A stretch of 64,000 nt of DNA, taken from Coptis chinensis (Eukaryota; Streptophyta; Magnoliopsida; Ranunculales; Ranunculaceae). Shown piece by piece: positions 10,575-54,186 of the stretch; position 1 is the stretch's first letter; each line of letters opens with the position of its first letter. The stretch covers positions 1-64,000 of the forward strand of contig JADFTS010000078.1 of assembly GCA_015680905.1 (NCBI GenBank), written 5' to 3'. A program made the translations under genes and the position numbers. The notes under the pieces are model-generated. The model searched no databases. It had not been told where the DNA came from and saw only the letters and a list, made by a program, of their open reading frames with translations.

Positions 10575-10608
<34 letters not shown>

Positions 10609-11935: not shown

Positions 11936-12028
11936 TGAATGATTTTCTTTTGCCAATTTATAATCTACAATAACATTTAGTTAATGATAACAGTTATAAT
12001 ATGGAATTAACAATACCGTTTAATCAAG

Positions 12029-16440: not shown

Positions 16441-16548
16441 GGACTTGGTAGAAGATTGTTGACCAGAAGCGTACTTCTTGTTCTTCCCTCTGCCAACCCG
16501 TGCAAACGTCTTAGGAGTTCTCAAAACATCATCTTGCACAGGTCATTT

Positions 16549-17952: not shown

Positions 17953-18218
17953 TTGATCTTGAAATTGAGCAAAGAAGTAGTTCTTCCTCTCGATTTTACG
18001 AAATAAAGTAAAAGTTTTTTATGGCAAGCAAGAGATAAGGTGTTGATGACCTTAGACTAAGTACCAAATAAGGAACCTAATGGGTAATATCTAAATTATT
18101 TCTAATGAGAGAAAGACAGAGCTTCTCTCACTAAGAAACATGACTTTTTTTCTCTCAGTTATTTCAAATGATCACGTAAAGCATGGACGGCAGGATAATC
18201 ACAAGCCAAAGTGCATAC

Positions 18219-18242
18219 ATATATATATATATATATATATAT
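18219..18242. repeat. (TA)n microsatellite, copy B
   Basis: Short TA tract at the position equivalent to 362-434, about one third of its length. Confidence 0.9.
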
Positions 18243-18349
18243 AGATAAAGCAGATGTGACATCAATGAAATTTTTAAGTGACTTCTACGAGCTAGTTGCA
18301 AGCTCAGTAAAAAAAAAAAAATTACACAACATACACGAAGTTCTCTTTT

Positions 18350-19796
18350 CTATTGAGCAAACCGGTCTCCAACCTGTTGAGTGACTTAGTCATACCCGAA
18401 AGCGGTGTAGGCTTGGATCATAGTAGCAAAGGTGATGTTATCGGGCATGCATTTCCTCCGCTTCATCTCGACAAACATCTCCTCCATCCTTTGCAACTCC
18501 CCTACTTGGCCATATGCACCGATGACACAATTGAAAAAGGGGCATCCAAAACTACATCGAGTTCTCCACTTGCCTCAAAATCAAGGCGATATTGTATAGT
18601 TTCGGCTTTACTATAAAAATTAACAAGAGAGCAAGAGGTATGCAATTAGGTTTTACTCCTTTGTACTTCATCATCCGAAGTAATATTCCATTTTCACAAT
18701 GTTGCCTACCCTCCCAAACATCTCAATAAGAATATTGAAAGTTATAGTTGTTAGAGAGCAAAATCTTTTCTTCATAAAATCGATAACTTTCTCCATTTTG
18801 TCATGCATCGTGCTTTCCCATATGATCCGATCAAGATATTAAACGTCTTTTATGTCATTTGGACTTCCATGAGTTGAAACTTCTCATACCACCTCTCCAT
18901 CTCCTTGATCTCTCCAACATTCCCATAAGCCCATAAGAAGGAGTTCATTGTGTAAACATCGGTAGGCATTTATTGTTCTTTGTCATATCATCGAAAGTAA
19001 TTTCTCCATCTGTTTTAAACATCTCAAGCTTTACCATATCCATCAATCAAGGTATTATAGGTCACAATGCTACACTCGATACCCAGATATGACATATCGT
19101 CGAAAATTACCAGCTCAATCGGATCAAAGCGTGAAATTTAGAACAAAGACAATTAATGAGGATCGAATATGTGTAAATATCCGGCTTGCAATCAGTAACA
19201 GACTTCATATCATCCACTATACCAAAAGCCTCCTGAAAGTGACCACTTAGACCATAAACACTGACAAGGGAAGTGTAAACATCAATAGAAGGCTTGAGCC
19301 CCTCGGCCACCATTTTCTCATAAAGCAAACTTGCATATCCAGGCTGCTTACATTTCCCAAGCATAACAAAAAGTTTTGTGTATGTTTGACATCTTGGTAC
19401 GTACCAATCTTGCTTACGTAGTAGTTCAAAAATCTAAAAGAGGCAAAACAAATATGAAGAACATGAATAAAGTTAAAAGCTTGGAACGAAATGAGGCTAA
19501 TATACCTTAAGAGCAGATTCCCATTGATTGTTAGTTATAGCTCCAGTCAAAGCTTCTAAAACCGACTTGGGCCAAAGGCGAGTCGACCTTGCAAAAAGAG
19601 CTCTCCTTTCAATACCTTGAACAGCAGCTTCAGTTGTTAGAATCCGTGAAAGGGTCTTCTTTGATTGCTTTTTGGATGCTTTCACATAGAAAAAAGTCTT
19701 CTTGTTTGTGTGAGGGACGAAGAAGTTGGCAGGGAATGTTGTCAAGGAAGATGGTGAACAAGTGAAGTTAGAACAAAGGAATAATTGGTGCTCCAT
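18350..19796 (-). pseudogene. Chloroplast-type PPR gene, copy B (At5g48730-like), frame damaged
   Basis: The best preserved PPR copy. Exon 1 (19796-19506) encodes a Ser/Phe-rich, acid-poor N terminus like a chloroplast transit peptide, then a segment with LWPKSVLEAL. A 72-nt intron (19505-19434, GTATAT...TTTTAG) follows. Exon 2 has PPR motifs, including LRKQDWYVPRCQTYTKLF and GLKPSIDVYTSLVSVYG at about 19415-19240 (minus), later SIVTYNTLIDGYGKA near 19050, and the last repeat with DNITFATMIQAYT near 18440. The order matches Arabidopsis At5g48730 as I remember it. Frameshifts near 19130 and in the middle region break the frame. PPR proteins of this P-class type bind organellar transcripts. Whether this copy is functional depends on whether those indels are real. 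Confidence 0.72.
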
Positions 19797-19884
19797 TAAA
19801 CTAAACTCTTAAACTAATATGTACGAAGTAATAAGGATGATTCTCAAATTCAGATATATTCGAGCCTCGGTGTGTTCGAAAATG

Positions 19885-20525
19885 ATACATGTGTTTTTCT
19901 ACGAAACGTCAATTTTAAATGGTACTCGAATTTGAATTGGAATGGTAAACACGTTATATTTGAAAAATAACATATGTCACTAAACTAAGTGGCATACTTC
20001 GTGCCATATACCGTTGGAAAGAACTTGAAGTCTAGTTTCTATGTAAACAAACGGATCAAAGTTTTGATTTCTAGAAAAAACGATACATGTATTTTTCTAC
20101 AAAATGTCAATTTCAAACTTCACACAAAATATGAGATAGAACGAGTCAACACCTCATATTGAAAACTCACATATGCCTTTATACTTAGTGTCATGCATCG
20201 TGCTATATACCTTTGGAAAGATTTTGAAGTCTACTTTCTATTTCAAAAAAATGGATCAAAATTTTGATTTGGGAAAAAAAAAAGATACATGTTTTTTCTA
20301 TAAAGCGTCAATTTTAAACGATACTCAAATTTGAATTAGAACGGTAAACATGTTATATTTGAAAAATAACACATGTCGCTAAACTAAGTGGCATATGTCG
20401 TGCCCGTACTCTATACCGTTGGAAAGAGTTTGAAGTCTAGTTTCTATGTAAACAAACGGATCAGAGTTTTGATTTCTAGAAAAAATGATACCTGTATTTT
20501 TCTACAAAATGTCAATTCAACCTGT
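19885..20525. repeat. ~200-bp tandem repeats, copy B
   Basis: Same array as 2065-2710, with anchors near 19887, 20081, 20283 and 20486. The unit number is the same in both copies, so the array predates the large duplication. Confidence 0.85.
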
Positions 20526-20589
20526 GTACAAATATGAGGTATTTATACTTTTTGTTTGCAATTATCTATTCATCTCAGGTTGAATTACA

Positions 20590-21290
20590 TTTTCAACACA
20601 TTACCTTGAATTGCGACCTACGATCAAGGTGATTAGAAGATTTATTTTATTTTATTTTATTTGAGAGAGATAGAGAGATATTAGGTAATATATATCAGGC
20701 ACGAACTAATAACCATTGATGTGTTTGTTGAAGAAGTTGGTCTCCAACAATTTTCTTCGACCGCACTGATATGTTGTTTATGTACTTTTAGGATGTCATT
20801 TCTCTTGGTGAATCTAGTCCTATTTCTATGAAATATTTGGCTTAGTTTGGTTAGTTATTATATATGTGATAGATCTCCTTGCTCACTCAATGGTATGCAT
20901 GCCCATTTTTTTTAGAAGGCCAACATATTTGGAATAAAGCTTTATTTGCGATCAGGTAAAGAGTCTGATTCGAACGTAACATACGCGAATATTTATTCAT
21001 ATTAGGTCGAGAGACAATTTCAACATTTTACCTTGAAATGCGACGAAAATCAAGGTGAATGTTTTTTTTTGGGATAACGAGAGAGAGAGAGAATGTAATC
21101 TTAGGCGTAGTCCAAACCCCTTGATGTGTTCATGAAATTACTCTCCAACAATCTTTTTCTTTGCATATGGCATTTTCAACACATTATCTTGAATTGCGAC
21201 TATAACCAAACCAAAATGATTGTAAGATTTCAATTTATTTTATTAGACAGAGAGAGAGAGAGTAATCTTAGGCACGGACTAGATATATAT
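20590..21290. repeat. Degenerate GA-rich repeat zone, copy B
   Basis: Equivalent of 2775-3475 with the same three imperfect repeats and GA tracts near 20665, 21080 and 21250. Confidence 0.65.
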
Positions 21291-21611
21291 GACAAGATTG
21301 TGAACAAAGTAGTAGTCGTAATTATTATTTATTTTTATTTTTTCCAAAATCTTGAGGCGAAAAATGATAATTACAATATAGGATGAGAGAGATATCGTTG
21401 AACATTAGATGTAGGAAAAGAAAGAAAAAGTTTAGCTTGATAATCTGTATGAATGCTTGAATATTAATGATAGATCCTGTTATTTCCATTAGATATACTC
21501 CCTTAACACTTTTGAACTGAAAATGAAGCAAATGTACACAGCCCATAAATACTATTTTGTATTGAAGCAAATATACTTGAATTAACTAACTTTGCATTTT
21601 TTCTGTTTCAG

Positions 21612-21794
21612 ACGACACAACTTATCGAAAAGTTGGACAAAATTGATGTGTGCAATATACCTATTTGGTCTGTGTGGGGATTTCAATTCCCACCAGATAT
21701 TGCCCCAATAGAACTCATTACCGAGAAGATGGTTGCTCGGAATATGCAGAAGATGTGGAATGATCATTATGGTATTGGTGCACTAAAAGTCTGA
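21612..21794 (+). CDS. Unidentified terminal exon, copy B
   Basis: A 60-codon open frame starts directly after a strong splice acceptor (T-rich tract then TTTCAG, 21598-21611) and ends in TGA at 21792-21794. The peptide contains KLDKIDVCNIPIWSVWGF, then FPPDIAPIELITEKMVARN and ends MWNDHYGIGALKV. It has no upstream exons that I can find, and the region before it is repetitive. I do not recognise the family. It could be the captured last exon of a larger gene. The following ~600 bp (21795-22217) look like 3' flank: T-rich and without coding signal. Confidence 0.45.
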   Translation, partial: TTQLIEKLDKIDVCNIPIWSVWGFQFPPDIAPIELITEKMVARNMQKMWNDHYGIGALKV

Positions 21795-22239
21795 AGCTAT
21801 CTCATGATATACCATTTGTTAGCCTCTTTCTCTCTCTACAAAGCTACTATTACTTATGTATTCTTGTGTATAGATGCCAAAATAGTTTATATTATATCAT
21901 TATTTTATTTTTCTATTGTACTTTTATTTGATGTCTTTTCTTCTTCTTTTCTTCTTCATCTTCTTCTTCCTTTTTGATTTTTGGTACGCCATTAGAAAGC
22001 CTTAAAACACATAAGCCTGTTAGGGCCAAGGTTGGTCTTATAGTTTTTTGGGGTGAATTACCCTGATCCAACGAGACAGCTGTAATATTGTTTAGATGTG
22101 TCTAAATAGTAAGTATTGTTAGTTGCACCTCGAGGATGCTTTCATACCCCAAATCCCCTGTAGGAAGTCGTTTTTGTACGTTCTTCCGACCAAGGGGGCT
22201 TTGAAGCCTATGATTGTCTACAAGGCCACGCGATGATCG

Positions 22240-25200
22240 AATGGGTAAACAGGATGAGGATCTGCCACCTTTGGATAAATGGAGTGTGTGACAAGCACTG
22301 ATGGTCTCAGTGCTTCATCATCAGTTGACCAGCATCTTTCAATGCCAGAACCCTCATCAACTACATGATCATTCACAAACCTATCAGTCCCAGCATCAAT
22401 AGTACAGGAACCCGCAGTATTAACCTCAACTGTTATCTCAGTGACAGCAGGTGCAGAACAGCTTGAATATGCATTTGACATCTGCTGCTCTTTCAAAGAC
22501 TCAGCCTTGTGAGTTCCATCAAATCTCTTCACAGCAATTTCTACAACTTGAACATTAACATTGCTGGCATCAAGTACCTTAGTTGGCTTCTCGACATTAG
22601 TACAGCTACCAACCCTAATATGTTTGCTTGGGACATCTCTCCACTGAGAAGTATGACAGCCATTTTGCACAGGGATTTTCCTGTTCAAGTTCTCAGATTG
22701 ATTTAACGTACTTGATTTGTCCTCGTGTACCAAACGACCATTGTCAAATATTGAAGGAACAGTCTTTGAGGCTTTAACCGCAGAGGAGCACTTTCCAGGG
22801 AAGAATGAGCTTGGTTCTCTCTGACCGCATACATCATGCTCGCCAGATATCACAATGTTGTTCTCGGTTCTTCCAAGGCTGAAATATCAATAGAACAATG
22901 TGAAGGGTGCAAATACTGAGTCACTTGGACTACAAAAAATAGCAACACAGACTACAGAGTGATGGGGAGCGGTTTCGCAACTTGAGATAAGATATCAAAA
23001 CACAATATCGATCCAGTACATCACGAAATGCTTCTTTTTTTCTTAAAACATTTTTATATATTTTTTTCGATTAATGAAAATTATTTTCCTGAACACGTTG
23101 CCTTGCTAAGGATGAACAAGGTGGGGTGGTAATGACAAGTAGTGTGTCTTAGTGTCCATGCAGAATCCTACAAACCCTAATCTTGGATGTGTTGTAGTTC
23201 TTTCTATAATGAATGAAAAATTATATTCTTTCGATAAAAACAAAAAGTCAAAAAACCAATAAAATCAATATAAGACATAAACACCCTTCATGATCTAATA
23301 AGATACGAACTCTGTTACGCTGTCTATTAATGTATTTCTTGTGCATAAATTATCAAGGGGCTTCATGGCATATACAACAATAAGATCAGCCAAACAGTTC
23401 AATCAAGACAACTATAAACAGTGAGTGGTGCGTAACTTCGCATAGTTGTCCTTTTAAAAATTTGAGTGGTGCAGTGGCAGTGGCAGTGAAAGGCTTGATA
23501 ATTGTTTCTTGCTTGTTAAGGAACTTCAAAAAGTCAGTATGTTTGCCCTTATTGAGCTTTTTCTGCTTCCACTTTTTTTTTTTTTAGAATTAATATTCTA
23601 AGAGAAAGGATACACAGAGAGGAGGATGGACTCGCATCAGGATGCTCTAATACATCCTACCTAACTGTGTTGGCACCTATAGGCCTATTATAAGGTGCTG
23701 ACCTACATGAGAGGACGAGAGGTGAACCAGAGGCTCGACACAAAAAGACCAAAAAGACAAAACGCCGGGCCAGAAGCCCCAAGGCTAGAGCACCAATAAA
23801 AACTTCTGAAAACAAATAGTATACACTTAAAAGAGATGAATACCACAAAGCATTTCACTTCCACACAGGTACTAACTTGTTTCTTTCCTGAAAATATATC
23901 AAAAAAGAATTCCAGACGTAATATATCAACCTTGATCATATTAAAAACATTTAAGTCCTAAGTTTCTGTCAAAATTACAGTTCCAGAATTTCATGAGAAT
24001 TTGGCATTTTGTTTTATTTATCATATTGCATACTGTGAAATATATTATCTCAATCGACTTGAATTTCCAAATATATTCTGGATGAGACTTTATTGACGTT
24101 ATTGAATATTTCTGAAAACTAACCTTGCCAAAGACTGTTTATCAGTAAGAGGTTCATGAGAAAGTGGATATGCAACGTCAGGTTCTACCGAAATTCCACG
24201 AGAGGGAGTCGAGAAATTGCACCAGTTTTTTGTACCTGCATTGAGAGATCAGCCAAACAGTTACAGTAATGAAGGAGATTGTTCCCATTATAATACAAAG
24301 TTGACAGCGAGGTACTGTACAGTAACTGTGTTACCTGTCACACCTCCCAACTTCTCATAATTACCATCCACGTAATGATTAGAGCATGTCTGCAGCGGCT
24401 TAACAGCGATCTCTAGAGCACCATTGTTAATGTTATTGTAGGGTCCCTCCTCTGGTTCTTCAGCTGCTAAAGAACCTAAAGTAGTGCCCCTTTGCTGCAA
24501 TTCTGTTGAGAGAGTATAGTCTCCCTTGCTGTTGCTCCATTTCAGCGGAAGTGATTGGATGCTTCTGCTTAGACGGATCTAATGCATACCTCAAGGCAAG
24601 CAACCTTAAATTCTCATCCAGGAAATGAGGGCTTATATCAACACTCTCATTGTTGGACAACATATGTGTCAAACTTGGTCTACCGACTGAGTTTGTTGAA
24701 GTGAAGCCCGTCGATGCTTCTGACAAAGGCAAACCTGGTGCAGCAGTTAAAGTTGAAGAATTGAAGGATCTTAGAAGACCGTGATCAAAATGATTGTTGT
24801 TTTGAAGGAAAGAGGTTTTTCCATGTGAGTGTCTGAGATCAGATGCATCATGCAGAATCGCCGCTGAGTGACACCAATAAGAAGATTGCTTTCCTTTCAC
24901 AGTTGAAGCACTAGATAGACGGCTATCACTTGTGAATCCAACACTTGGACTAGGACCAGCCATCTGGTTATTATTAAAGAGGGAATTGCCTCTCTCTGTG
25001 CCATAGTAGCAATTATCAGCGGTGTCCTGAACCCTTTTACATCTATCCGCGTGATTGAAATGACCCAGTATAATGTTGTTAAGTTGTTTTTCCTCTGTTC
25101 CATCTTTTCTGTTACTACAATATTCCGAGGGGCCGATGGTACCACTATATACACCATGTGGCGCCCTAAACATAAAAGTCTCACTATAATTGATCCTATT

Positions 25201-25986
25201 CTTACTAGTCTGAGACAGCACATCCCTTTCAGGTAGGGTACTAAATTGCGGAAGATATGTATGTGATCTCTTAACCATGTCACCCTTCAATTTTTCTACT
25301 TTTGCCGAATCTCGAGGGGCAAGATGCCGAACGTTGGACTTGCTTTGGATCCCTCTATGAGAAATTGACGTGTTTGAAGGAAGAAGACCCCCAAGATTTT
25401 GCCTCGACTCCTCCTTTAACATGGGACTTCCCACTGCACAAAAGGAAAAAATACAAAATAATCAGGGAAATTTCGTAGAAACAACTTATGAAATAATCAA
25501 ATCAGAATGTCAACAACTGAAATTCTTCTTCAAGTATTCACCATTATGAAAAACGGGGTCCTGTAGTAATGGCTTTGGGCTGTTGCTGTACATAACAAAT
25601 GGCTGTGGCTGCAAAGTTGATACAACTGAACCTTCCACATTATAACTTTGCTGACAAGGTTGCCCAAGTCTCAATTCAATGTTTGATGAAGTATTATCTC
25701 TTTCGACAATAAATGCTTCCCTTGGACCCTTACCTCGGTTGACATCAGAACTTGTACCAAGAAATCTGAAGTTCCCCAAACTCTGGTTGGCAATTAATGG
25801 ATCGCCACTTTTGCTGAGAACGCCAATGTACTCCGATATGGATTGATATCCACTGTCTTCTCGCCCTTTCTCTAAAAGGGAACTTGACAGCACTAAACCA
25901 CTGGATATTTGACCTTCTTTCACCATGTACATTGTCTGGTTATCTGCTGGAGCGGGCAAGAAAACTTGTGCAGCTCCAGCCAACAT
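22240..25986 (-). pseudogene. Gene X internal exons, copy B (large nuclear-type protein)
   Basis: The cleaner copy. Exon-like blocks on the minus strand are 25986-25553 (EAR-like IELRLGQP near residue 105; donor GGTGAAT after HNG), 25436-24336 (long Ser/Asn-rich segment with FLDENLRLLALRYALD near its end; donor ACAGGTAACA), about 24232-24123 (PLSHEPLTDKQSLAR), and 22878-22240 (starts LGRTENNIV after a TTTCAG acceptor, ends GSGIERCWSTDDEAL). The composition is low in hydrophobic stretches, as expected of a nuclear regulatory protein. The likely family has C-terminal PHD fingers (recollection, not checked), which are absent here. Upstream the block joins helicase exon 6 directly, so the true 5' end of gene X is missing. 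Confidence 0.55.
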
Positions 25987-26117
25987 TTTGAGAGGAATCT
26001 ATTGGTGTTTTTGTCCTTGAAATCTTTACCCTGCAACTCGGTTTGCCATTCGTTTTCCCTTCTCACTGCTTCCTCCTCTTTTGTTTCGCCTAGGATAGAG
26101 AGAGAGAAAGAGCTTAC

Positions 26118-28380
26118 AGAATCACCAAGAGGCTCTCCTCTTTCTGCAACAGCCATAGCAGATATTCGTCGAGGCTGTGTACAGATGATGCTACGAAATG
26201 CTCCACGACCAGATTCTATCTCAGACTCTAATAAATACTGAGGAAGCTGAGTGGTTTTGCCACATCCAGTCTCTCCAGAGATCACAATGACCTGTCATAT
26301 AAAAAAAAATAACAATTGGTAACACCAATAGAAAATTCACAAACCGGATATAACGCGTGCAAAAACAGCCTGTTGGAAATATGTCCAAATTTTTACCTAA
26401 CTGGTTTGGAAATATCAATAGCTTCCACTTCCATGAGCATATGTGAAAAGACAAATAGTAGACAGATGAGAGAATCTGTCGATGCTTATCCAATTTGCAT
26501 ACTTAAAGGTTAAATCTGAGCTTTACTCCTTTTTTTTATTATTAAATTATTAATGCAATACCAACACACAGAAAAAATTTGTGACATGTTCCCGGAGCTG
26601 TGGGGGATGTGAGATGGACAAAATTTTACCTTTGCAAATTACCAAAAAGGTTTTGTTACAAATACATTAACACAAAAGATAATAGCAATAAAAATTTATA
26701 ACAAAATAGTTTTTACATTTGCAAGCCAAAATGTTGTTTTATAAATAGTTCCAGGATCACATTTGCATTTACAAGATTTAACAATATTACAGGCACAGCT
26801 TTCCAAACTGAAGCTTACTATGAAAAAGACTGTCTTATATACATACATAAACTGGATCCAAGTTTATCATAAGTTGGAACCATACAGAAGGAACCATAAA
26901 TGAGCTCAAGCCAGAAAGTAACTTTCTTAAAAGCTACAGCTCAAGTGACAAATCCCAGTCAAACTCTTAATCCATTAATGTCGCAATGAGTCATTACAAG
27001 GAGAAAAAAAAAAAGTCAAAGTATGAGGTGGTTGTTTATTGTTGATGTATTTCGTTCTTTCCCAACTTATTTTCGTAAGCACAGTACAAAATGAAGGAAG
27101 AATCTCCAGAAAACGAAACGAAAAAACACAACAAAAGGGAAAATCCCTAACTCAAGAGGGGCTTTTGTGTCTAATTACCTGTACCCCTTGATAATATGGA
27201 GTACTCTAGCCTTTAATATTTTAACAGCATATGCTCCAGCACCACTAGAAAAACGATCTAAATCGTTTATGCACATGACTACGCATGTACACAACTTGGA
27301 ATTATCAACCAAACAATACTCATCATACTCGACTGAAATCTTCTAGGAAGGGCATCAGCACGAAAGTAAAACCTGATTTCGAGCAATAGCTGAGAGTAGC
27401 CTATCCTTCTCTGAGTATGCAGGACGTGATTTCCTAAAGTCCAGCATCCTATTTCCCTCGGGCGATTCCTGGGAATTAAAAAAATTATCAAATTTAGCGC
27501 TATATAAAATCAATAACCCAGAAGAAAAACCCTAAATAATTTCAATATGTATTCTTTTAAGTAATCTCCACACCAAACTACAAGAAAATCCATGCAACTT
27601 AATGGCATTATGTGTGAGGACCAACAATATGTGTTCTTTTAAGTGCCCAACCCTTTTTTCCATTCATCAGAAAAGCAGGGCCATTTATAGAGGAAGAATA
27701 AAGAATGTTAAACTGACGCGAAATATACAAATAGCTCGTATATCATCAAACCTGAACTCTGAACATTTGTTTGTAAAGACAAATGATCACATTATGACAT
27801 TTACAAGAGATCCCCACAGAAGGATCAATCATCAAAGTATACAATTTCTTTCAATATAAACTCCCCCAACAAATAGCGTGTGGGCAGATAGAAGTGTTAC
27901 TGTGATGAAATGTTTACCACCAACCAAATTGTAGTCATAATAATTAAAGATGGGCATCCAACTCAAAACCAATTGGTGATGAGTGAAGCGGCCCCATGAT
28001 TTATATATTGATTGGCTAGGCTTTAGACTCCCAATGTGGGATTAATTTCAACAATAATTGCACAGCGTACTGCATCAGCAACAGAGAAAGTAATTATTAC
28101 CTGCCATGATCTCTGGAAATTGCGCATTCGAGAACTTTGACGTTGAAGAACCTTTTCCATGACCGACCTGTCAAGAAATGAGTCTGGATTCTCGTCTGGG
28201 TTTAAATCTTCAATCTGATCAACAACCCTAGGATCACCTGAATTGTCATTGATTTTTCCAGAACTTAATTGCATTCTATCAAGGTGTTCCTGAAGGAGAC
28301 CTTCAACTGTCCTTTGCAAGCTAAGAGGGAGAACCACCTGTGCAAATAGAGCTTTGTAATTTAATCAACCTTACAGCTAC

Positions 28381-28414
<34 letters not shown>

Positions 28415-29034
28415 ATTACCTCTCTTTGAGGCCGCTTATCATCAAGATCGGGTCTGTAGTTAGGAAGAGGGACCTTGCTTGCAACCACAACTTTTCCATA
28501 AAGCTCACTTAAACATAAACAGCACATCAGAACTCAATTTCAAAAACACTACCAAATAAGAAAAAGTGCCACAAATCATTTCCCTAACCTGTAAAGTCCC
28601 ATCCTTTTTTAACAAGATTAGAAATCTGCTCATAATCCCTTCTATCTCTTTTATATCTACTAATTATCTCTTGGTCTTGTTCGCTACTTGATAGCAAACT
28701 AAGTTTCCATTTCCATTCATCAATGTTAGCCACGGAGGACGACCCTGACGCCAAAATCATAATTCTAGTATCAGAAACGCCTACACTTTAATAATTTCAT
28801 AACAAAATACTACTTGCAGACCATAAGTTCCGCTACACTATAAGTCACATTCTCACATTGTAACACAACACTAAAGTTCTCATAGCTCAAATTAAACTAA
28901 TTGTACTAAATAGCAATAAAATTCAGGTACTACAATATAAGTATATAGTGAAAAAAGAAAAAACCTTTTGGTTATCGAAATCACATTCATACTCATCATC
29001 AGAAAACTGCTCAACAAAAACTTCTTCTACTCAA
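26118..29034 (-). pseudogene. DExH-box RNA helicase, first six exons, copy B (3'-truncated)
   Basis: Same gene model as 8297-11226, with exons at about 29034-28965, 28744-28589, 28507-28420, 28337-28101, 27468-27373 and 26291-26118. Motif [14 protein letters not shown] and an intact motif Ia [12 protein letters not shown] are present. It differs from copy A in two ways. Exon 6 lacks 15 nt (residues RVSTE before RGEPLGDS). Exon 2 has extra T bases at 28605-28610 and one G fewer at its acceptor side, which shift the frame. Motifs II-VI are missing, as in copy A. DExH3/5-type proteins are organelle-targeted or cytoplasmic RNA helicases; this truncated copy should not unwind RNA. Confidence 0.75.
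28384..28412. repeat. (GA)n microsatellite, copy B
   Basis: GA repeat at the same intron position as in copy A. On the minus strand it forms a pyrimidine tract just after the exon 3 donor. Confidence 0.9.
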
Positions 29035-29309
29035 CCAAATTGTACTCCTTGTTCTGATATTTCCGGTATGAAATTTTCAAGTATGAAGTAAAGAAGGTGA
29101 AATGAGAGTGAGATTTGAGAGGTTCGAAATACATTTTTTGAATTTGAGAACAAGTGTTAATCCGGAATGAGTCCCGATCAATCTCTCCTGCTTTCATGCG
29201 CGTGAGGGCATAATCGTCCACTGGAAGACAGATCTCACACCAATCTCTAGACACGTGGCTGTTGTTGAATAATAAATAAAATGCAAAAAAAAAAAAAAAC
29301 GTTTCTTTT

Positions 29310-29750
29310 TTTATCACTAGTATCCGTGCCGCGGCATGATATCGATCTTCGGCCCGCCGGGACGCCAAGATCCACCCCTCGACGAAGACAAAAATACGCT
29401 GGCTGGCGCCTCGACGCCAAGATCCGCTTCCCCGATGCGACGACGTGATATACGCTGCAAAAACCCAGCCCAAGTCCACCAACTTAAAAAGCCCAAAAGG
29501 TGTAAAAAGGCCTAACATAAAAGGCCCATCCCAAATAGTTATAGTGTCCATTCACAAAGTGTAAAGGGCCCAATGTTAAAAGCCCAGCCCATGTAGCCTT
29601 TGTTGACCAAATGGTTATGGAGTGACTTAACAAAGTTGCACACACCCTATCATCTTTTAGATTCTCCATGTCATAAAATTAATCCAAAGGTTAGGGAGAG
29701 GTGTGGTTGGTCCGACACCACCCTATTTTGTTATATAGATAAAAAGGGTG
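29310..29750 (-). promoter_or_regulatory. Helicase upstream block with GGCCCA/AGCCCA boxes, copy B
   Basis: Equivalent of 11505-11935. The GGCCCA/AGCCCA boxes (29465-29595) are conserved, but the GC-rich part (29325-29465) is almost unalignable with copy A, in contrast to the near-identical flanks. Confidence 0.4.
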
Positions 29751-29842
29751 AATGATTTTCTTTTGCCAATTTATAATCTACAATAACATTTAGTTAATGA
29801 TAACAGATTATAATATGGAATTAACAATACCGTTTAATCAAG

Positions 29843-30419
29843 ATGAGACTAAATTTCGCAAGTAATATATTATTAAAGGAGAACAAGATTAGTCGAAGAC
29901 AAAACACTCAGTGTGAGCGAGTCGTAGATCAAGAAAACATGGAGTCGAGGGAAGCCACTAGGGACGACACTCCAAGTGACGTCCAAACATTTCTTTTGTT
30001 CAGACGTGTGTTCACAAGTCGCCCGGGCTATTTATCAACTGATAGCGAGATGGATAATTCCTCACCTCCTCTATCAACTAATAGTCACTCTGTGAGTTCA
30101 ATTCTTTCTGTTTGTAGTGCATAGATCAGTAACTGAGGATTGTTGAATAATCCAGCCTTTTCTTGTGCTTCCTAGTGAAGTTATCCCCCGACTAACCTGT
30201 GTACTGTTACAGTGTTACAAGGAGACCATGTCAGAAAGCAGCAAAATGTGTTGTCGTAGTAAACATCAAATTAACCCAATTCACACCGACTCAAGTGGAA
30301 ACTATGTAGGAGGAAAAACAATGGTTGAGATGACTATGTCGGATACTTTCCACAACCGATTAATCGATTACGTAACAACAACGACATCATCACCTAAATC
30401 GCCTAATATTCGGAATTAA
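29843..30419 (+). CDS. Possible small plus-strand gene, copy B
   Basis: Same two frames as in copy A (29843-30124 and 30165-30419). The second has a longer C terminus because of base differences after 30356. Function unknown. The ~180 bp that follow are AT-rich and lead into the LINE 3' end. Confidence 0.3.
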
Positions 30420-30601
30420 CCAAGGCTCTTCTAACTTGTTTTATAGCCTAATCGGGTTAAATCTACTATGATATTCTAAGTTTTTATTCCATGCATTTCC
30501 CACATAAACTTAGCCCCGGACCTTCCACATTTTCTTCGGTCCACTTGGTCCTTGCTATACAACTGAAAACAAAGGTCAAAACTTGAATCATTATTCACGC
30601 C

Positions 30602-30849
30602 TTTCTTAAACACTGTCAAGACAAGAATAACCGTGATTCCCTATAGGAAATTTCATTCCTACTCTAGAATATCTTTTTAATGAACCTCCAAAACCCAACT
30701 GACCTTTTTTTTTGGCTAAGTCGGTAGTAATACTTCTATAGATAGATAAAGAAGGATATACATTGTGATCTACTGACACAAAACTCACCTTCTGGGTAAT
30801 GTTTATAGATACATTCCACAGTAACAAGTCATACCTCAAAACAACACTA
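30602..30849. repeat. Left copy of ~245-bp duplicated Athila flank
   Basis: Matches 46029-46271 and 12783-13028. It includes the end of the intergenic region and the LINE 3' terminus. It ends at CAACACTA, after which copies A and the right flank continue TGCTACC but this one runs into filler and the tRNA-like sequence. The first ~40 bases differ more from copy A than the rest does. Confidence 0.8.
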
Positions 30850-30867
30850 AAGTCTATGATATACTAT
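30850..30867. other. Junction filler between host and tRNA-like sequence
   Basis: Eighteen bases not found at this place in copy A or in the right flank. Together with the preceding ACTA, the first ten bases form a 14-nt exact match (30846-30859) to LTR-internal sequence at 31137-31150. The last bases ACTAT plus the next G match the host word ACTATG that would have followed. Confidence 0.75.
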
Positions 30868-30942
30868 GTCGTTGTAGTATAGTGGTGAGTATTCCCGCCT
30901 GTCATGCGGGTGACCCGGGTTCGATCCCCGGTAGCGGCGCCA
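30868..30942 (+). tRNA. tRNA-Asp(GUC)-like sequence with encoded CCA, likely retro-copied primer
   Basis: A full cloverleaf: acceptor GTCGTTG pairs with TAGCGGC using wobble pairs, D arm, anticodon stem CCCGC/GCGGG with loop CTGTCAT (anticodon GTC at 30901-30903), and T arm CCGGG-TTCGATC-CCCGG. Discriminator G is at 30939 and CCA at 30940-30942. Internal A and B boxes are intact. Nuclear tRNA genes lack CCA. Two T residues and then the LTR follow, the same spacing as between the other LTR and its PBS. The simplest reading is a DNA copy of the complete primer tRNA rather than an ordinary gene. There is no T4 terminator directly after it. Confidence 0.9.
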
Positions 30943-30944
30943 TT

Positions 30945-32489
30945 TGATAAACGTAAAAAGTGAGTGTTTTACCTACGAAATAAAGTGATGAACTCTAAAC
31001 GCAAGTAAAACTACGATTTCCGAAATGTGTTTATCAAGTTTATTCTACTCTCAAATCAATTGAACAGAGTTGGAATAGAAGATTCATTCCACTCCTAGTT
31101 CTTTGCACTGGTTGTTTTGTAAGATCTATTACTCTTACTAAAGTCTATGAGAGATTTACGAGGGGAATTATACTAAAAATACGCGATAATTTAAATAACA
31201 ATATATTGAAATTTGACTACGAAAGCTACGGAAATACGATGGTTTTTGAATCTAGATAAAGGATTAGAGGGGATTTGAATCCACCTCGAATCCAACTTAA
31301 TAACCTAGCATAGATTGTTGTATCTCAATTCTTATGTTCTTACGACAAGAATTTCGAGTTCTAATCCCTAGTGTTCGTGACATTTCTACCACAAACTAAC
31401 TAGCATGTGAGGTCGTCCACCCATTCTCATGGCGAATCACGACCTTCTAGAGTGGAATAGATGCTACAACATTTCTACACTACACAACTAAGTTTTCATC
31501 AAAGCTTCATCAACTCCTCTAATGGAGGTTTTAGCCTTGATTCATCAAACCATCATTTTCCATTGCATTATAACTAAACATCATGTTAAACTTCTAACTT
31601 AACTAAATTAACTAACAATGTTTCAATCTACTTAAACTACGAAATGATAATCAACAAGAATTAAAACTAATTAAGTAATGGAAATGAACTAGAATTGAAA
31701 TTAGATCTATAATGTAAATGACAAAAACGAAATAGAATAATAACTACTTTATTTATCTAATCTATCAAGAACAATGATTCAAGAACTTAATCTAAAACAA
31801 GAATTGAAAATGGAACTAACTTAATTAATCTATTGAAAAACTAGATCTAGAATTAATTAATGGAGGCTACTAATCTAATCCTTAATCTAGGTCTAATTAT
31901 CTACTACTATCTACTATTAACAAAGAGCTAAGCTTTTGTTTTTATACATTCAGATCCAAAAATCGTGCATGGGCTTGGAACCATATTTTGGGCCGGAAAA
32001 TCGGGCCCAAAACCCAATTATTTCAGTCCAGAAAGGGCTCTTCAGCTGCAGTTGGCTTCGACAGATGTTTCGTCTACTTCTGCTCCTCTGATTGGGTCAA
32101 GGCTTGGACCATTGGAAAGCTCCTTCCGAGCCGGTCGTTTTGACATAAGGTAGGCCCAATTCCGAGGTCTGAGTTCAAAGATATGGTCTTCGGAAGTTCT
32201 GCTAACTTTGTGTACAGTTTCTGCCCACGTGGACTTTGACTTTTCAGCTCTTGACCGGGCTTTACAAAGGCTCTGTCTCCTTGAATCTCGGCCTTTATCA
32301 CAGAACTTCTTAGCAACTAACCTTTGCTCTGTTATCTCGCTAAAGTGGCACATTTCTGCACATAATGGACTTTGAAGCCTGAAATGCACAAAAACACGTA
32401 ATCAGTATTAACTCTTACTTATTATTCACATAATTGGTCTAAAAGTACGATTGTTAAGGGGTTAAAACTACAGTTTTGGGCTCTTATCA
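30945..32489 (-). repeat. Athila 1 left LTR (3' LTR)
   Basis: 1545 bp, TGATAA...TTATCA ends. On the minus strand a TATAAAAA box lies at 31946-31939. The outer edge touches the TT plus tRNA-like sequence; the inner edge touches the polypurine tract. Confidence 0.95.
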
Positions 32490-32504
32490 AACCACCCCCA
32501 AACA
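32490..32504 (-). other. Polypurine tract of Athila 1
   Basis: Minus strand TGTTTGGGGGTGGTT directly abuts the TGATAA start of the 3' LTR, the expected primer site for plus-strand synthesis. The second element has nearly the same tract. Confidence 0.88.
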
Positions 32505-34079
32505 GCATTTTGCTTGTCTTCAAGCCAATATGAGAAATTAGAATAAGTGACCAAAAATGGAGTTCTAACTACTCTCGTTTCGCTGAGTGCAATTGCATTT
32601 ACCATATGCAATAAGGCCTTAAACCACTAGGAATTCCCTAGTGGACGAGCTATAGCCTCGTGAGATTTTTCCAGTGAAGGTACTCACAAACTTCATCTAT
32701 ACTACAACGACTAAGAAATAAAACTATTGTTTCCTCATTCATGTCTCAACTATCTATACATCTCACTAGCAAATGAATAAGAACAACCAAGTCAAAACCC
32801 TAAGCTAATATATATATATATATGCATAATAATCAATCATCTATGATACAAATATATATACTATGAGTAATACTATGAAATGCCTAACAGGTTCGTTTCT
32901 GAAAATTCGAAATAGCGTCCTTAAGTAGGTCCTCACATAAATGTCAAGACAAAAATCACTCGATTTTTCCACTGTTTTTTGCTACTCCGATTAATGCAGA
33001 TTGGCACACTTTACCTTACAATCTCAATATAACACACATGGAAGCTGGGGGTCGATCAAACATATTTGCCACTTACTATCACACTAACCTATTCCTAATT
33101 GAGCTAGAGGTCTTTATTAGGTGTTGCGGGGATTAGGAGATGGTTTAAGAAGGAAGGAATTAGATATTCAAATAGGACAAGTCTGAGATAATAGAGTCTT
33201 CATATTATGTAACTTAGAGAAAACCTTGTTATTTTCTTTTGCTTCTATACTTTGTTTCCATCCTTAGCCATATTTTTTTCTTTTTCTTTTCTTTGGCTTT
33301 TGACTCTCTTTTATTCTATTTTTTGGAGTTTTTATTTATTTCTATTTTCTTTTTCTTTTCCTTGGATGGAAACTTTTTTTTTTTCTCAACTAACTAACTA
33401 ATTTTTTGTTTACGTGTTTTCTCTTCTTCTTTCTTCACTCATTCTATTCTCGGACTTATTCTAGATTGGGTAAGTTGAATTTTTATTTTGTTTTGTTTTT
33501 GTAATGGGGTAAAGGAATTGTGGTTTATGGAAGGCTAAAGAAAGGCTCGGAGAGGCGACTAAGCGGAAAATAATTTCATAAGGTTGGAATTTACGGCTAT
33601 GTCGATCCAAAGAGGCCTAAATTCTCGCTTAGGATATGGTACAAATTGATCTAGCAAGTGGACGTGTGATTTCTCTATCTGGATTTTACTTCTCCCTTGT
33701 GTCATTTCTCAAATGTTTTGGCTCATATAAGACTTTAGGCTATATTCTCACAGGATTTGTAGAATAAGTATTCTAGCCTAGGTTTTGAAACTTTACCTGC
33801 TAACAATCATAGATACTCATGTAATATATTTATAGATAGATGCAAAGATTATTACCTACATATTAACCTAAGTTTATAACAATTATTCTGATGCAAAAGC
33901 TACGTGAGACTTCTAGATTGTTAAGAGCATAGAGAAAGAAAACAATACCCATATTCCTAAGTGTATAGCATAAACTTATTTATTTATATTTTTGAATTTT
34001 TGAATTTTTGACTAGAAAATAAATGCATATTATACATATCTATATCCTAACAGATGCCTTAATTACACGTGTTTCTATG
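32505..34079. other. Athila 1 long 3' non-coding region
   Basis: About 1.6 kb between the PPT and the last ORF with no sustained open frame. Several blocks are conserved with the second element, notably 32572-32710 and 33590-33910 (GGCCTAAATTCTCGC word). It also contains a short (TA)n near 32810 and pyrimidine-rich DNA at 33230-33430. Confidence 0.7.
32624..32644. other. Conserved near-palindrome in Athila 1 3' region
   Basis: CCACTAGGAATTCC followed by CTAGTGG: a 21-nt inverted repeat with one extra C. The second element has a perfect 20-nt version at 53244-53263 in the same relative place. Confidence 0.85.
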
Positions 34080-38290: not shown

Positions 38291-39549
38291 TCAGTCCTCA
38301 TAGACAGGGTCCAGTAGAAGGACTTCCTCCACATACGGGGACGATAGCTCGTGGAAATATTTTAAACGTTGACCATTGACTTGAAAGGTACTGTTGTCCT
38401 TGGGATTTACTAAGGTGATTGCCCCGTAAGGGGTGACTTCAGTAACTAGAAAAGGACCAGACCAACGGGTTTTTAATTTCCTTGGAAAAATATGTAGATG
38501 AGAGTTGTAAAGCAAAACCTATTGACCTACGACAAACTCTTTGCGCAAGATATGCTTATCATGAACACGTTTCATGTTAGCTTTATAATCCTTCTCGAGA
38601 TCGTAAGAAACGCTACGGATTTCTTCAAGCTCATTCAATTGCAACTTGCGTTTGACACCCGTCTCATCAATATTAAAGTTAAGGCTTTTTATAGCCCACA
38701 GGGCACGGTGCTCTAATTCAACGGGCAAATGACAAGGTTTACCAAATACAAGTCTAAAGGGAGACATACTTATAGGAGTTTTGAAAGCAGTCCTATACGC
38801 CCATAAGGCATTAGATAGACGCTTCGACCAGTCTTTCCTATCAGGATTAACAGTTGTTTCTAAGATCTTTTTTATTTCCCTATTATAAACTTCTACTTGT
38901 TCGCTAGTTTGTAGATGATAAGGAGTTGCTACCTTATGTGTAACTCCATACTTTTTTACTAGAGATGCAACAACCCTGTTGCAAAAATGTGTTCCACCAT
39001 CACTAATGATGGGTTTAGGGATGCTAAAACGACATAAAATATACTCCTTGACAAAGAACACAACTGTCTTATGGTCATTGCTACGGCAAGCCATGGCCTC
39101 TATCCATTTAGACACGTAGTCGATGGCAACTAGAATATAAATGTAGCCGTGGGAAACAGGAAAGGGACCCATGAAATCAATGCCCCAAACATAAAAAATT
39201 TCTACTACCATGATTGGATTTAATGGCATCATATTACGCTTCGTGATTCGCCCAAGTTGTTGGCAACGAATACACGTCTTGCAATGCACTTGGGCATCCT
39301 TAAAAAGGGTAGGCCAATAAAATCCACATTGAAGAACTTTAGCAGCTGTTTTCATCCCACTAAAATGGCCACCACACTCTTTGTCATGGCAGAACGATAG
39401 AATTTCATTATATTCCCACTGGGGAATACAACGACGAATAATCTGATCCGCACAATACTTAAAAAGGTAGGGCTCATCCCAGTAGTATAACTTAACTCTG
39501 GCCAAGAACTTCTTATGTTCATTTCTTGACCAATCATAAGGAATAACAT
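38291..39549 (-). pseudogene. Athila 1 integrase
   Basis: Integrase of the pol polyprotein, almost one frame: 39505-38519 and 38515-38291, split by TAG at 38521-38519. The HHCC zinc-binding part ([10 protein letters not shown] ... CIRCQ) is near 39390-39260. Catalytic D in GIDFMGPFP (about 39185), D in IISDGGTHF (about 39010) and E in [16 protein letters not shown] (about 38895) are all visible. The C-terminal GPF/Y-like segment TRWSGPFLV is near 38470. The enzyme would process LTR ends and join them to target DNA. The stop and the damaged upstream frame make it non-functional as read. Confidence 0.88.
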
Positions 39550-39857: not shown

Positions 39858-40358
39858 CTAAAGCATAAACCACAGACTAAGAATTCTTTTTTCAGTAGTT
39901 GTATAATTCCGTTGAGCATCGTTTAAGGTTTTACTAGCATAATAAATAAATGTGGACTTATTATCTAGTTTTTGTCCTAAGACAAACACCAACCGCATAA
40001 TCACTAGCATCACACATGAGTCGAAAGGTTTAGACCAATCGGGAGGCTGTATAATTGGTGCAGAGGTTAAGGTGGCTTTTAAGGTGTCAAAAGCCTGCTT
40101 ACAGTTAAAATTAAAATCAAAGATGACATCCTTTAAAAGCAGATTAGTTAAAGGCCTAGCTATTTTCGAGAAATCTTTAATAAAGCGCCTATAAAAACCT
40201 GCATGTCCTAGAAAGGCTTTAATGTCACGGACAGTCCGTGGTATAGGTAGAGTCGCTATCTTATCTAGTTTGGCCTTATCTAGTTCGATGCCATCACTAG
40301 ATACAATGTGACCTAGTACTATGCCCTTTTTTTTACCATGAAATGACAATTTTTCCAA
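39858..40358 (-). pseudogene. Athila 1 RT connection and RNase H region
   Basis: Continues the RT in another frame after a homopolymer frameshift at 40325-40332. GIVLGHIVSSDGIELDKAK and FLGHAGFYRRFIKDFSKIARPL mark the RT thumb, and FIYYASKTLNDAQRNYTTTEK the RNase H region. The frame is garbled around 40020-39985, where the first catalytic Asp segment of RNase H is expected, and ends at 39858. The remainder to 39550 is further disrupted. Confidence 0.8.
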
Positions 40359-41485
40359 TTTAAAATGAGGCTCTTTTCTTCACACCGTGTCAAAACCTTA
40401 GACAGGTTAGACAAGCAATCTGTGAAAGAGTCTCCATAGATAGAAAAGTCATCCATGAATACTTCCATGAAGCGTTCTACCATGTCACTAAATATATGAA
40501 GCATACATCGCTAGAAGGTACTAGGAGCATTACAAAGGCCAAAAGGCATTCGTTTATAGGCGTATGTTCCAAAGGGACATGTGAAGGTAGTCTTTTCTTG
40601 GTCATCAATATCAATAATAATTTGGAAATAGCCAGAGTAGCCATCCAGAAAACAATAAAAAGCATGACCAGCTAGACGTTCTAGCATTTGATCTATAAAA
40701 GGTAAAGGAAAATGATCCTTTCGTGTCATAGCATTTAAACATCTGTAATCAATACAAATCCTCCATTTAATAGGTCCTTGTGTAAAAACATAGTCACCTT
40801 TAGCATCACGTACCATGGTAATTCCTGATTTCTTAGGAACTACATGAATGGGACTTACCCATTCGCTATCGGAGATTGGGTATATGATACCCGCGTCGAG
40901 TAACCGTAAGACTTCTTCCCTAACCACCTCTTTCATGGCAGGGTTCAGGCGACGATGAGGTTCGCGAGAAGTCTTTGCGTTATCCTCTAAATGGATACGA
41001 TGAGTGCACACCTCGGGGTTATTAATTCCCTTAATGTCGGCTAGGGACCAACCAATCGCCGAACGATGTTCTCTAATCACCCTGATTAAACGTGTCTCCT
41101 CATCCTTAGATAACAGAGAAGATATAATAACCGGATGACTACCATCCGGATCAAGTTGAATATATTTTAGCTCCGGAGGGAGAGGTTTAAGCACTGTGGT
41201 GGGAGGAATATCGATAAATGTTTCTTCTGGGTCCTCATCTTGCGTAATGAATACTTGCTTAGGTGGCAAGTCTTCATACTCAGTATGTGGGGCAACCGAA
41301 GGTTCTACGATAGGTGTAGACTCAAAGATGGTGTTGACTTCCTTTAAGTAGGAGTCATTGACAAAATCTGAAGTTCCAAAAGAAAGGAATTTATACATAT
41401 GGTTTTCGGGAAACGTGTTGTTAAAATAATCTTGAGCTAAGCTCTCGATCATACTGACCTCTCCATCTACAGACGAATCTGGTAA
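40319..41485 (-). pseudogene. Athila 1 reverse transcriptase
   Basis: The RT runs from about 41452. It has EWVSPIHVVPKKSG (near 40870), WRICIDYRCLNAMTRKDHFPLPFIDQ, FCFLDG-type motif A (CFLDGYSGYFQI) and GTYAYKRMPFGLCNAPSTF, then TAG at 40513-40511 and, in the same frame, MLHIFSDMVERFMEVFMDDFSIYG with the catalytic F-M-D-D. The stop replaces a Gln found in the second element. The frame is lost after CHFMVKK at an A8 tract. The N-terminal ~150 residues before the RT core are acidic, as in other Athila-type pol proteins. Confidence 0.88.
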
Positions 41486-42463: not shown

Positions 42464-43924
42464 TTATTCTTGGGCTAATTGTTGTATGCCCTGATTTATA
42501 GATTGTAAAATCTGTTGGTTTGATTGAGTCATGGATTGGAAAAGTTGTTGGGTAACTTGTATAAAGGCGTCGATACGATCCGGTTGTGTAGGTGTAGTAG
42601 TCACAGGTGGTGCAACTGGAACTATCTCTCGTTGATTATTTTTGGGCGGGTTGTGATAGTTATTATTGTTAACCGGAACGATACCTCTATTGGTATTATA
42701 ATTATTATAATTATTCTGACCTTGTGCTTGACCTTGTCGTGGTTGCACTTGGTTGTTATAATTATTATAATTCCCCTGACCTTGTCCTTGTCCTTGCCTA
42801 GGTGGAGCTTGGTTATAATTGTTTGCTTGCCTAACGTTTTGATTATTGTACCCTGGAGGTGTTACTTGTTGATTATTTCTCCAACTGAAGTTGGGATGTT
42901 GTCTCCAAGGGGCGTTAGGAATAGGATAGTTATTAATAGAGCAAACATTATCTTGTTCTGGTGGTTGTTGTTCATAAGCTAGAGGACAATAAGAGTCGGG
43001 ATGCTCAGGACTCAAACAGAAATTACATGGGTTGGAGTTGGCATTCATGACGGGGATAGACTTTTGTTGTACAGAAATGGCCTTTACCTTTTTAGTAAGA
43101 GATTCGATTAAATTTTTAAGTTCTGGGTCGGGTCTCATCTCAAACATACCGGTGGCCTTAACTATTGAAGAAGAACTAGCAGAGCGGGGGATATCATCAC
43201 TACCCCCCCAATTATTATTGTGCTTAGTTTGATCTTCTAAAAATTTGTAAGCCTCCGAGGCTCCTTTATTTAGGAAACTACCCCCATTCATTATGTCAAG
43301 GACTTCTTTATGGTGGTGTAGAAGTCCTTTGAAAAAGGCACGAACTAACGTGTCTTTCGCTAGGTTATGATGTGGACACTCTATAAGGAGATCGGTAAAA
43401 CGATTCCAAGCCTCAGAAAATGATTCATGAGGATTTTGTCGAAAGAAATGAATCTTGGAAAGCATCTTATCCGTTTTTAGGGGTGGGTAAAAATGTTCCA
43501 TAAACAGTTGAACAAGTTTAGCCCACGAGTCCACAGAATTAGGCGCTTGGGCAGTTAACCAAGACGCCGCCTTATCGGCTAAGGTGAAAGGGAATACCCT
43601 CAGTTTAATTTGTTTTGCACCAACCGTAGGATGGTGGAATGTTGTTAGGACTTGTTCAATCCTACGTATGTGTTGATAAGGTTTTTCATGGTCTAAACCA
43701 TGAAAAACGGGTAACAAATTAAAAATATTTAGGGGGATTCGAAAATCCCTCACTGGGTCTGCTAGAACGATGCAAGATTTGGGACTATCGCTCAAGGCTT
43801 TGTAGAGAAGTCGAGAGGGGAGCTCTCTTTCTTCACCATTATATCGTGGTGTGTGTGGAATAGTAGCTAGAGGTGTAATGGGTGGTATACTAGATAGACG
43901 TGTTTGTCGACGTTGCCGTGATAA
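42464..43924 (-). pseudogene. Athila 1 Gag
   Basis: The capsid-type retrotransposon gag domain lies at about 43740-43200 (YQHIRRIEQVLTTFHHPTV, WLTAQAPNSVDSWAKLVQLF, HESFSEAWNRFTDLL). A zinc knuckle CNFCLSPEHPDSYC (CX2CX4HX4C) lies near 43030-42985, then a long Asn/Gln/Pro-rich tail (42950-42520). The frame stays open upstream to a stop at 43927-43925, but I see no ATG between that stop and the capsid region, so initiation would have to be non-AUG or the start has mutated. It ends in TAA at 42466-42464 and then continues in frame into the protease. Confidence 0.85.
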
Positions 43925-44468: not shown

Positions 44469-44481
44469 GGCAGTGGCGCCA
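44469..44481 (-). other. Primer-binding site, tRNA-Asp type
   Basis: On the minus strand TGGCGCCACTGCC follows the LTR after AA. It is complementary to the 3' end of the tRNA-Asp-like sequence at 30930-30942 except at two positions. The first seven bases pair perfectly with GGCGCCA. Confidence 0.88.
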
Positions 44482-44483
44482 TT

Positions 44484-46028: not shown

Positions 46029-46271
46029 CTTCTTAAGCATGGTACAGTAACAGCTGCATTCCCTCTATAGGAAATTTCATTCCTACTCTAGAATATCTTT
46101 TTAATGAACCTCCAAAACCCAACTGATTTTTTTTTTTGGCTAAGTCAGCAGTAATGCTTCTATAGATAGATAAAGAAGGATATACATTGTGATCTACTGA
46201 CACAAAACTCACCTTCTGGGTAATGTTTATAGATACATTCCACAGTAACAAGTCAGACCTCAAAACAACAC
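46029..46271. repeat. Right copy of ~245-bp duplicated Athila flank
   Basis: Begins immediately after the terminal CA of the right LTR with CTTCTTAAGC and is collinear with copy A from 12783 onward, continuing into the LINE. The sequence overlaps the left flank instead of being complementary to it. Confidence 0.85.
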
Positions 46272-46291
46272 TATGCTACCTGTCATTAAAC

Positions 46292-49672: not shown

Positions 49673-49794
49673 ATTGGGAGTGTTGGGGACTTGGTAGAAG
49701 ATTGTTGACCAGAAGCGTACTTCTTGTTCTTCCCTCTGCCAACCCGTGCAAACGTCTTAGGAGTTCTCAAAACATCATCTTGCACATGTCATTC

Positions 49795-54183: not shown

Positions 54184-54186
<3 letters not shown>

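Follow-up and report, generated by a model that had tools for sequence, protein, structure and literature searches.

A complete DNA copy of the primer tRNA-Asp at the outer LTR edge of an Athila-like retrotransposon in Coptis chinensis, and the recurrence of related primer copies in the same genome

In this study we have identified a complete tRNA-Asp(GUC) that ends in CCA and is joined through two bases to the outer edge of a long terminal repeat (LTR) in a 64,000-nucleotide stretch of Coptis chinensis DNA (contig JADFTS010000078.1, positions 1 to 64,000), which as a whole is called the window. This tRNA, at 30868-30942, is a DNA copy of the primer of the retrotransposon itself, and the locus is one case of a copying error that recurs in the same genome. 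We consider it highly probable that the copy arose by primer overrun during plus-strand synthesis, after which the tRNA end was sealed at host DNA, and that the same overrun recurs within the family. The features of the junction and of the element are as follows.

30868-30939, plus strand: full-length copy of the primer tRNA-Asp(GUC), 72 nt from nucleotide 1 to the discriminator G73 (ARAGORN, RF00005, letters)
30940-30942, plus strand: CCA (letters), absent from the nuclear genes L045 and L046
30943-30944, plus strand: TT between primer and LTR, identical to the TT at 44482-44483
30945-32489, minus strand: 3' LTR with its outer U5 edge at 30945; 33 of its 1,545 positions differ from the 5' LTR
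32490-32506, minus strand: polypurine tract immediately before the 3' LTR, in the sense direction GCTGTTTGGGGGTGGTT and then TGATAAG
32697-32711, minus strand: 15-nt stretch in the 3' untranslated region with the same letters as the 5' end of tRNA-Asp (word comparison); also found near 53320, minus strand
38522-39505, minus strand: integrase fragment (rve, H2C2; Pfam)
39861-40358, minus strand: RNase H fragment (Pfam)
40514-41452, minus strand: reverse transcriptase fragment (Pfam)
42467-43795, minus strand: gag (Pfam Retrotrans_gag)
44469-44481, minus strand: primer-binding site (PBS), 13 nt (letters, comparison with family PBSs)
44484-46028, minus strand: 5' LTR, its outer U3 edge meeting host DNA flush at 46028/46029 (letters, alignment)

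A search of the whole window with ARAGORN returns a single tRNA, tRNA-Asp(gtc) at 30868-30942 on the plus strand, and the Rfam tRNA model RF00005 scores 54.2 bits on 30868-30939 against a gathering score of 29. Its identity is supported by sequence identity and by this covariance-model match, not by the folding energy, which is unremarkable (z -0.29) and uninformative. The letters of the junction read tRNA-Asp, CCA, TT and TGATAA, the LTR terminus beginning at 30945 directly after the TT. Since the element lies on the minus strand, position 30945 is the outer U5 edge of its 3' LTR, the place of an unremoved primer. It has been well recognized that CCA is a post-transcriptional end of tRNA and that bases such as the TT between primer and LTR are normally removed by integrase. 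Unlike a nuclear tRNA gene, the window copy has both CCA and an LTR. Two nuclear tRNA-Asp genes (L045 and L046), both met among the 40 candidates scored in the genome search below, have the tRNA body with no encoded CCA and no LTR, and the copy differs from their body by two substitutions, each of them C-to-T when read in the tRNA sense. The first-pass annotation, made from the window letters, had described a 72-nt tRNA-Asp(GUC) with CCA, TT and TGATAA at the LTR edge, and ARAGORN, RF00005 and the letters agree with it; the letters likewise confirm its reading of the other LTR, where the same TT is followed by a PBS that differs from the tRNA copy at two positions. Its proposal that the tRNA originated as a primer copy gains support from the comparison with genomic tRNA-Asp that it had suggested, because the two nuclear genes met share the tRNA body and neither encodes CCA.

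The element is a minus-strand Ty3/gypsy LTR retrotransposon, with gag followed by reverse transcriptase, RNase H and integrase in Ty3/gypsy order (Pfam matches in separate open frames). Its two LTRs of 1,545 nt each show 33 differences and no gaps, and both run from TGATAA to TTATCA, that is, TG...CA. The PBS matches tRNA-Asp, the primer that is a trait of Athila elements. In none of the tested frames, three of which were searched at E up to 5, did the Athila ORF-1 domain PF03078 match; this domain is reported in only 16% of Athila elements (PMC6317226), and its lack therefore does not exclude Athila membership. In Diaspora, a related element, the PBS is 18 nt long and 5 bp from the LTR (PMC1142308), whereas that of the window element is 13 nt long and 2 bp away. 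The lineage is here called only Athila-like. The two positions at which the PBS at 44469-44481 differs from the tRNA copy look like later changes, since PBSs elsewhere in the family usually read TGGCGCCGCTGCC, which matches the tRNA; in the normal junctions read, PBS length is 12-14 nt and usually 13. The 15-nt match between the 3' untranslated region and the tRNA-Asp 5' end was reached by none of 300 random interiors. Among 18 other aligned family copies this stretch is exact in 13, carries one or two changes in 3 and has lost about 11 nt in 2 (L013 and L022), and it shows no special conservation, standing at the 69th percentile of its surroundings.

To examine recurrence, 101 bases of the junction served as the query against the whole assembly (116 contigs, 935.6 Mb). 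The best 40 of 259 candidates were scored, a set chosen by score that favours long copies; read at the junction, they comprise the window, 37 further LTR-linked copies and the two nuclear tRNA-Asp genes. A 32-letter pattern from the LTR edge to past A58 was found at 214 places at up to three mismatches (reversed control 0), a total that may include copies ending at A58 whose last six letters match by chance and to which the reversed control is blind; the safe figure is at least 100 places with no or one mismatch (59 exact and 41 with one mismatch among the matches listed). A 26-letter pattern ending at A58 was found at 1,011 places at up to three mismatches (control 0), at least 100 of them exact; with three mismatches this pattern also admits somewhat shorter copies, so that these edges carry about 15-18 nt of tRNA or more, yet the normal PBS is about 13 nt. 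With a PBS of this length, even copies ending at A58 would overrun it by 5 nt. The normal junction, a 13-nt PBS and then leader, occurs at 10,154 places at up to three mismatches (control 0). On contigs C1-C4, 33 of the 99 exact 26-letter matches continue exactly past A58 and 4 with one mismatch, while 62 do neither. All these pattern counts are tied to the LTR edge TTTGATAA and thus miss related subfamilies with other edges.

These results reveal that the window locus is not a one-off event, a reading rejected by the 37 other LTR-linked copies and by the pattern counts. The first-pass annotation had expected full-length primer copies to be rare and had suggested a genome search for more LTR edges with long tRNA-Asp copies. 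The search yields many, and the expectation of rarity does not hold: copies past A58 stand at the at least 100 LTR edges with no or one mismatch, up to 214 at three mismatches, and 22 of 58 copies read reach nucleotides 1-5. These 58 copies are the window, the 37 from the junction search and 20 from the pattern search. In an ungapped comparison of 40 nt, 56 of the 58 have distinct joins. As to the two pairs that share a join, L017 and L018 are neighbours in a tandem array, and L024 and L043 belong to a segmental duplication that includes the flank. The copies thus represent mostly independent events, and a heritable lineage carrying the tRNA copy is rejected as the main explanation.

To see what follows the copies, 20 loci other than the window were read at 10 kb. 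At 18 of them the tRNA copy runs into element sequence, while L026 and L027 were not placed. At eight loci (L009, L014, L015, L016, L021, L022, L023 and L024) the copy is followed by partial U5, PBS and leader, preceded in L024 by patches of tRNA-like sequence. PBS or leader with no U5 follows at two (L010, L019), internal or 3' element sequence in a deletion-like arrangement at five (L011, L012, L017, L018 and L028, with a short inverted patch in L012) and inverted sequence at three (L013, L020, L025). The LTR itself is directly preceded by the element 3' region at 6 of the 20 (L010, L016, L018, L025, L027, L028). Where U5 is repeated, the repeat is 83.8-98.9% identical to the preceding LTR (8 loci measured), a range suggesting a different RNA of the family as a frequent acceptor; later divergence could account for part of the difference. 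Perfect 5-bp target duplications were found in four of the six internal cases tried, namely CTCAT (L023), GCAAT (L015), CTCCC (L022) and TCTAT (L013). As for the other two, the right end of L024 is rearranged, and in L012 no right LTR end was found when both ends were sought. At least the four tRNA copies in L013, L015, L022 and L023 were therefore made before ordinary integration. The window locus differs from these relatives in that its copy lies at the outer edge against host DNA, and it is the only locus where a full copy has been seen in this position.

Several of these loci have unusual structures. In L013, together with L053, two directly oriented LTRs enclose an interior that is internally deleted and inverted, and the element has a perfect 5-bp target duplication; its jump coincides with the match between the tRNA 5' end and the 3' untranslated region, and the acceptor is the stretch corresponding to 32697-32711. 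L017 and L018 belong to an array in which a deletion derivative made up of LTR, tRNA copy and interior is repeated in tandem at a spacing of about 6.19 kb. In L020 an inverted LTR follows the tRNA copy, and in L055 the copy is followed by forward and inverted U5 pieces in a hairpin-like join.

The window also preserves the target of the insertion, because the element lies in a tandem array. Positions 1-13028 align to 17861-30849 (95.5%), positions 12783-18088 align to 46029-51332 (95.7%), and 1-235 also match 51102-51332. Unit 1 therefore displays the target without the element, and the following features can be placed.

12783-13028, plus strand: empty site, uninterrupted target in tandem unit 1 (alignments to 17861-30849 and 46029-51332)
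30604-30849, plus strand: left copy of the approximately 245-bp target stretch (alignment to the empty site)
30850-30867, plus strand: 18-nt filler that separates host DNA from the tRNA 5' end (letters, word comparison)
46029-46273, plus strand: right copy of the approximately 245-bp target stretch (alignment to the empty site)

No tRNA is found at the empty site in unit 1, where the longest word in common with the tRNA is 9 nt. Together with the genome-wide recurrence of the junction against a reversed-pattern control of 0, this rules out chance. At the right end the LTR terminus TTATCA meets host sequence with no extra base. A 5-bp target duplication was not found at the window locus; the host flanks overlap instead by about 245 bp, which is likely a target duplication. 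At the left end, the first 10 nt of the filler together with 4 nt of the flank form a 14-nt word that is present in the LTR U5 at 31137-31150, and a word of this length spanning the join was reached in only 2 of 1,500 random fillers. Taken alone, the filler has a 10-nt word in the element, which is not significant (803 of 3,000 random fillers reach it). The sequence ATATACTATG at the filler end, including the first G of the tRNA, recurs at 32856-32865. The earlier annotation is partly supported: the primer copy, the passage of A58 to nucleotide 1 and the joining of the unprocessed tRNA and TT end to host DNA stand, with the empty site without tRNA in their favour, but its claim of rarity does not, and the 245-bp overlap and the filler had no place in it.

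The tandem unit is about 17.86 kb (window 1-51332). The units differ from one another in clusters, and their alignment has 193 gap openings over 13 kb, while the LTR pair is clean; the clusters could be due to conversion or poor polishing. An array of this kind offers a different origin for the overlap, in which the tRNA copy arose as proposed and the array broke, so that 13028 of one unit was joined via the element to 12783 of another. The flanks do sit in the array, and the left and right target copies diverge more (18 of 242 aligned positions, plus 3 gaps) than the LTRs (33 of 1,545). However, most of the excess falls in one cluster; the 216 columns outside it contain 6 mismatches and one 2-nt gap, close to the LTR divergence, and one complex difference from unit 1 is common to the left and right copies. 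We regard such a joining of units as possible but rather unlikely. An element could also have inserted first with element sequence beyond the tRNA, as a tandem like L010 or L028, and a later deletion could have brought host DNA to the tRNA 5' end. Element sequence does follow the tRNA copy in five of the six loci with the element 3' region directly before the LTR, but a simple deletion makes no 245-bp overlap of the flanks, which leaves this order of events improbable. It is still more improbable that the locus is an assembly artefact, with a tRNA-bearing element end chimerically joined to the flank: the clustered multi-base differences between units 1 and 2 and their gap openings could reflect poor polishing, yet the LTR pair has no gaps and tRNA-LTR junctions of this type are found in many contigs. 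Insertion beside a pre-existing nuclear tRNA-Asp gene or tRNA-derived retroposon, to which an intact tRNA body equal to the two nuclear genes apart from two changes might point, is ruled out by the empty site without tRNA and by the CCA, which neither nuclear gene has, barring a precise loss of the tRNA from unit 1, and the CCA-TT-LTR junction occurs at the at least 100 other places as well.

In the primer overrun that we favour, the order of steps may be reconstructed as follows. During plus-strand synthesis, reverse transcriptase would go from U5 into the tRNA still attached to the minus strand, pass A58 and run off at tRNA nucleotide 1. The tRNA would stay on, leaving the 3'-LTR end with TT and the whole tRNA. 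Because the tRNA is not removed, such an end would lack a proper integrase end, and the U5 end would be hidden from integrase. The U3 end would be joined to the chromosome exactly at its terminal CA, presumably by integrase, and the tRNA end would be sealed by microhomology-driven, templated end joining, giving the 18-nt filler and the approximately 245-bp duplicated target. Overrun could have two outcomes. If it happened in plus-strand strong-stop DNA, the over-long 3' end would be mismatched to the 13-nt PBS and would transfer aberrantly by microhomology, priming on partial U5, leader, or internal or inverted element sequence, and the resulting rearranged elements would be inserted normally by integrase. 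If an unremoved primer was copied at the end of full-length plus-strand synthesis, the product would be a tRNA-capped U5 end. This second outcome fits the window locus, where the U3 join is exact and the tRNA end was probably sealed by end joining. According to section 12 of a review (PMC12786077), host alternative end joining mediates second-strand transfer via microhomology, and alternative end joining at this step would suit the patchy joins. Template-switched LTR elements of Triticeae, described in the same section with second-strand transfer by alternative end joining, likewise involve strand-transfer rearrangement and microhomology; a copied primer tRNA at the switch point is not mentioned in that section (PMC12786077).

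The points at which copying ended provide further information on this process. The last copied tRNA nucleotide lies in nucleotides 1-5 in 22 of the 58 copies, in 6-9 in none, in 10-14 in 24 and in 17-49 in 12. A less biased set, the exact 32-letter matches on contigs C1-C4 (32 of 33 read), gives 8 in nucleotides 1-5, none in 6-9, 12 in 10-14, 4 in 15-29 and 8 in 30-49; under a uniform spread over nucleotides 1-51, the simulated probability of 12 or more end points in 10-14 is 1.5e-05. No substitution opposite A58 was found in the 58 copies. Because reverse transcriptase is usually halted or confused by a methylated A58, it is a reasonable inference that the copied primers lacked A58 methylation. 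Nuclear tRNAs of Arabidopsis bear the m1A58 signature (PMC11658184), suggesting either that some primers are unmethylated or that the enzyme of the element passes m1A, between which sequence cannot tell. A modified base at position 9 may lie behind the heap at nucleotides 10-14. For example, m1A9 in tRNA-Asp(GUC) is listed in a table of human data (PMC13191261). However, two observations speak against position 9 as a strong block: PMC7475180 names m1A9 only for archaeal and mammalian mitochondrial tRNAs, and nuclear tRNA-Asp(GTC) of Arabidopsis gives almost only full-length reads (PMC11658184), the latter suiting a primer with no strong stops beyond the T arm. We tentatively speculate, as a possibility somewhat short of an even chance, that the end points could be a fossil record of where reverse transcriptase stops on tRNA-Asp in germ-line particles, mostly near A58, then before position 9 and then at the 5' end. 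Copies past A58 would come from primers without the A58 methyl, and each overrun would force a microhomology-driven second-strand transfer and give rise to deletion, duplication and inversion derivatives, some of them mobile. If this is true, hypomethylated primer would be a steady source of new non-autonomous elements.

Primer tRNA copied into DNA has been described in retroviruses. For example, a circle of Moloney murine leukaemia virus carries tRNA-Gly between its LTRs (Colicelli and Goff 1986, as cited in PMC12220202) and has been explained by a spurious primer that remained on the minus strand and was copied when plus-strand synthesis reached its end (PMC12220202). The circle resembles the window locus in that a tRNA was copied into DNA at the U5 edge. 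However, it is one cloned unintegrated circle with a non-cognate primer that lacks 4 nt at the tRNA 5' end (PMC12220202), whereas the window copy is of the cognate primer, complete to nucleotide 1 and integrated, with at least 100 related edges in the genome. The traits of the Colicelli-Goff type are present here, a CCA-ended tRNA being joined to U5 through PBS-adjacent bases (CCA-TT-TGATAA) and absent from the empty site. An HIV MN provirus in a Jurkat clone also bears a CCA-ended tRNA-Gly copy at the outer edge of the integrated 3' LTR; in contrast to the window copy, that tRNA is non-cognate and lacks 5 nt, and the explanation preferred in that study is a separate insertion that followed a normal integration with direct repeats (PMC12220202). 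At the window locus no 5-bp duplication is seen, and the TT that links the tRNA to the LTR points to one molecule. In HIV, m1A58 stops plus-strand strong-stop DNA and unmethylated primer gives overrun (PMC13191261). The step is the same in Coptis chinensis, whose genome has both near-A58 and overrun copies, but here it concerns a Ty3/gypsy element with a 13-nt PBS and overrun products that survive as rearranged insertions. The Helenus elements, small LTR elements with plants among their hosts, are similar in linking tRNA-like sequence to LTRs, but their tRNA-like part is within the LTR (PMC10886601), whereas the window tRNA lies outside the LTR against its U5 edge. A Helenus-type reading is therefore rejected, since the tRNA is outside 30945-32489 and ARAGORN finds no tRNA in either LTR.

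No report of recurrent primer-tRNA copies in an LTR retrotransposon family was found among the titles and abstract openings listed, which is weak evidence of absence. The described copies that we found are single retroviral cases, whereas one genome here provides at least 100 integrated overrun examples with their joins, by which second-strand transfer, primer removal and primer methylation become testable from genome sequence. Primer overrun would also be a concrete source of rearranged, internally deleted LTR elements. For tRNA annotation, the locus is a warning that an intact tRNA-Asp with CCA can be retrotransposon debris.

Two further observations were made in the window. Short tandem repeats with units of about 200 bp are present at 2064-2722 and 19879-20541, one set per duplicated unit. 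Where the tandem array ends, a second, related element follows at 51333-64000, which is 68.7% identical to the first over about 3.6 kb covering pol and 72% identical in the 3' region.
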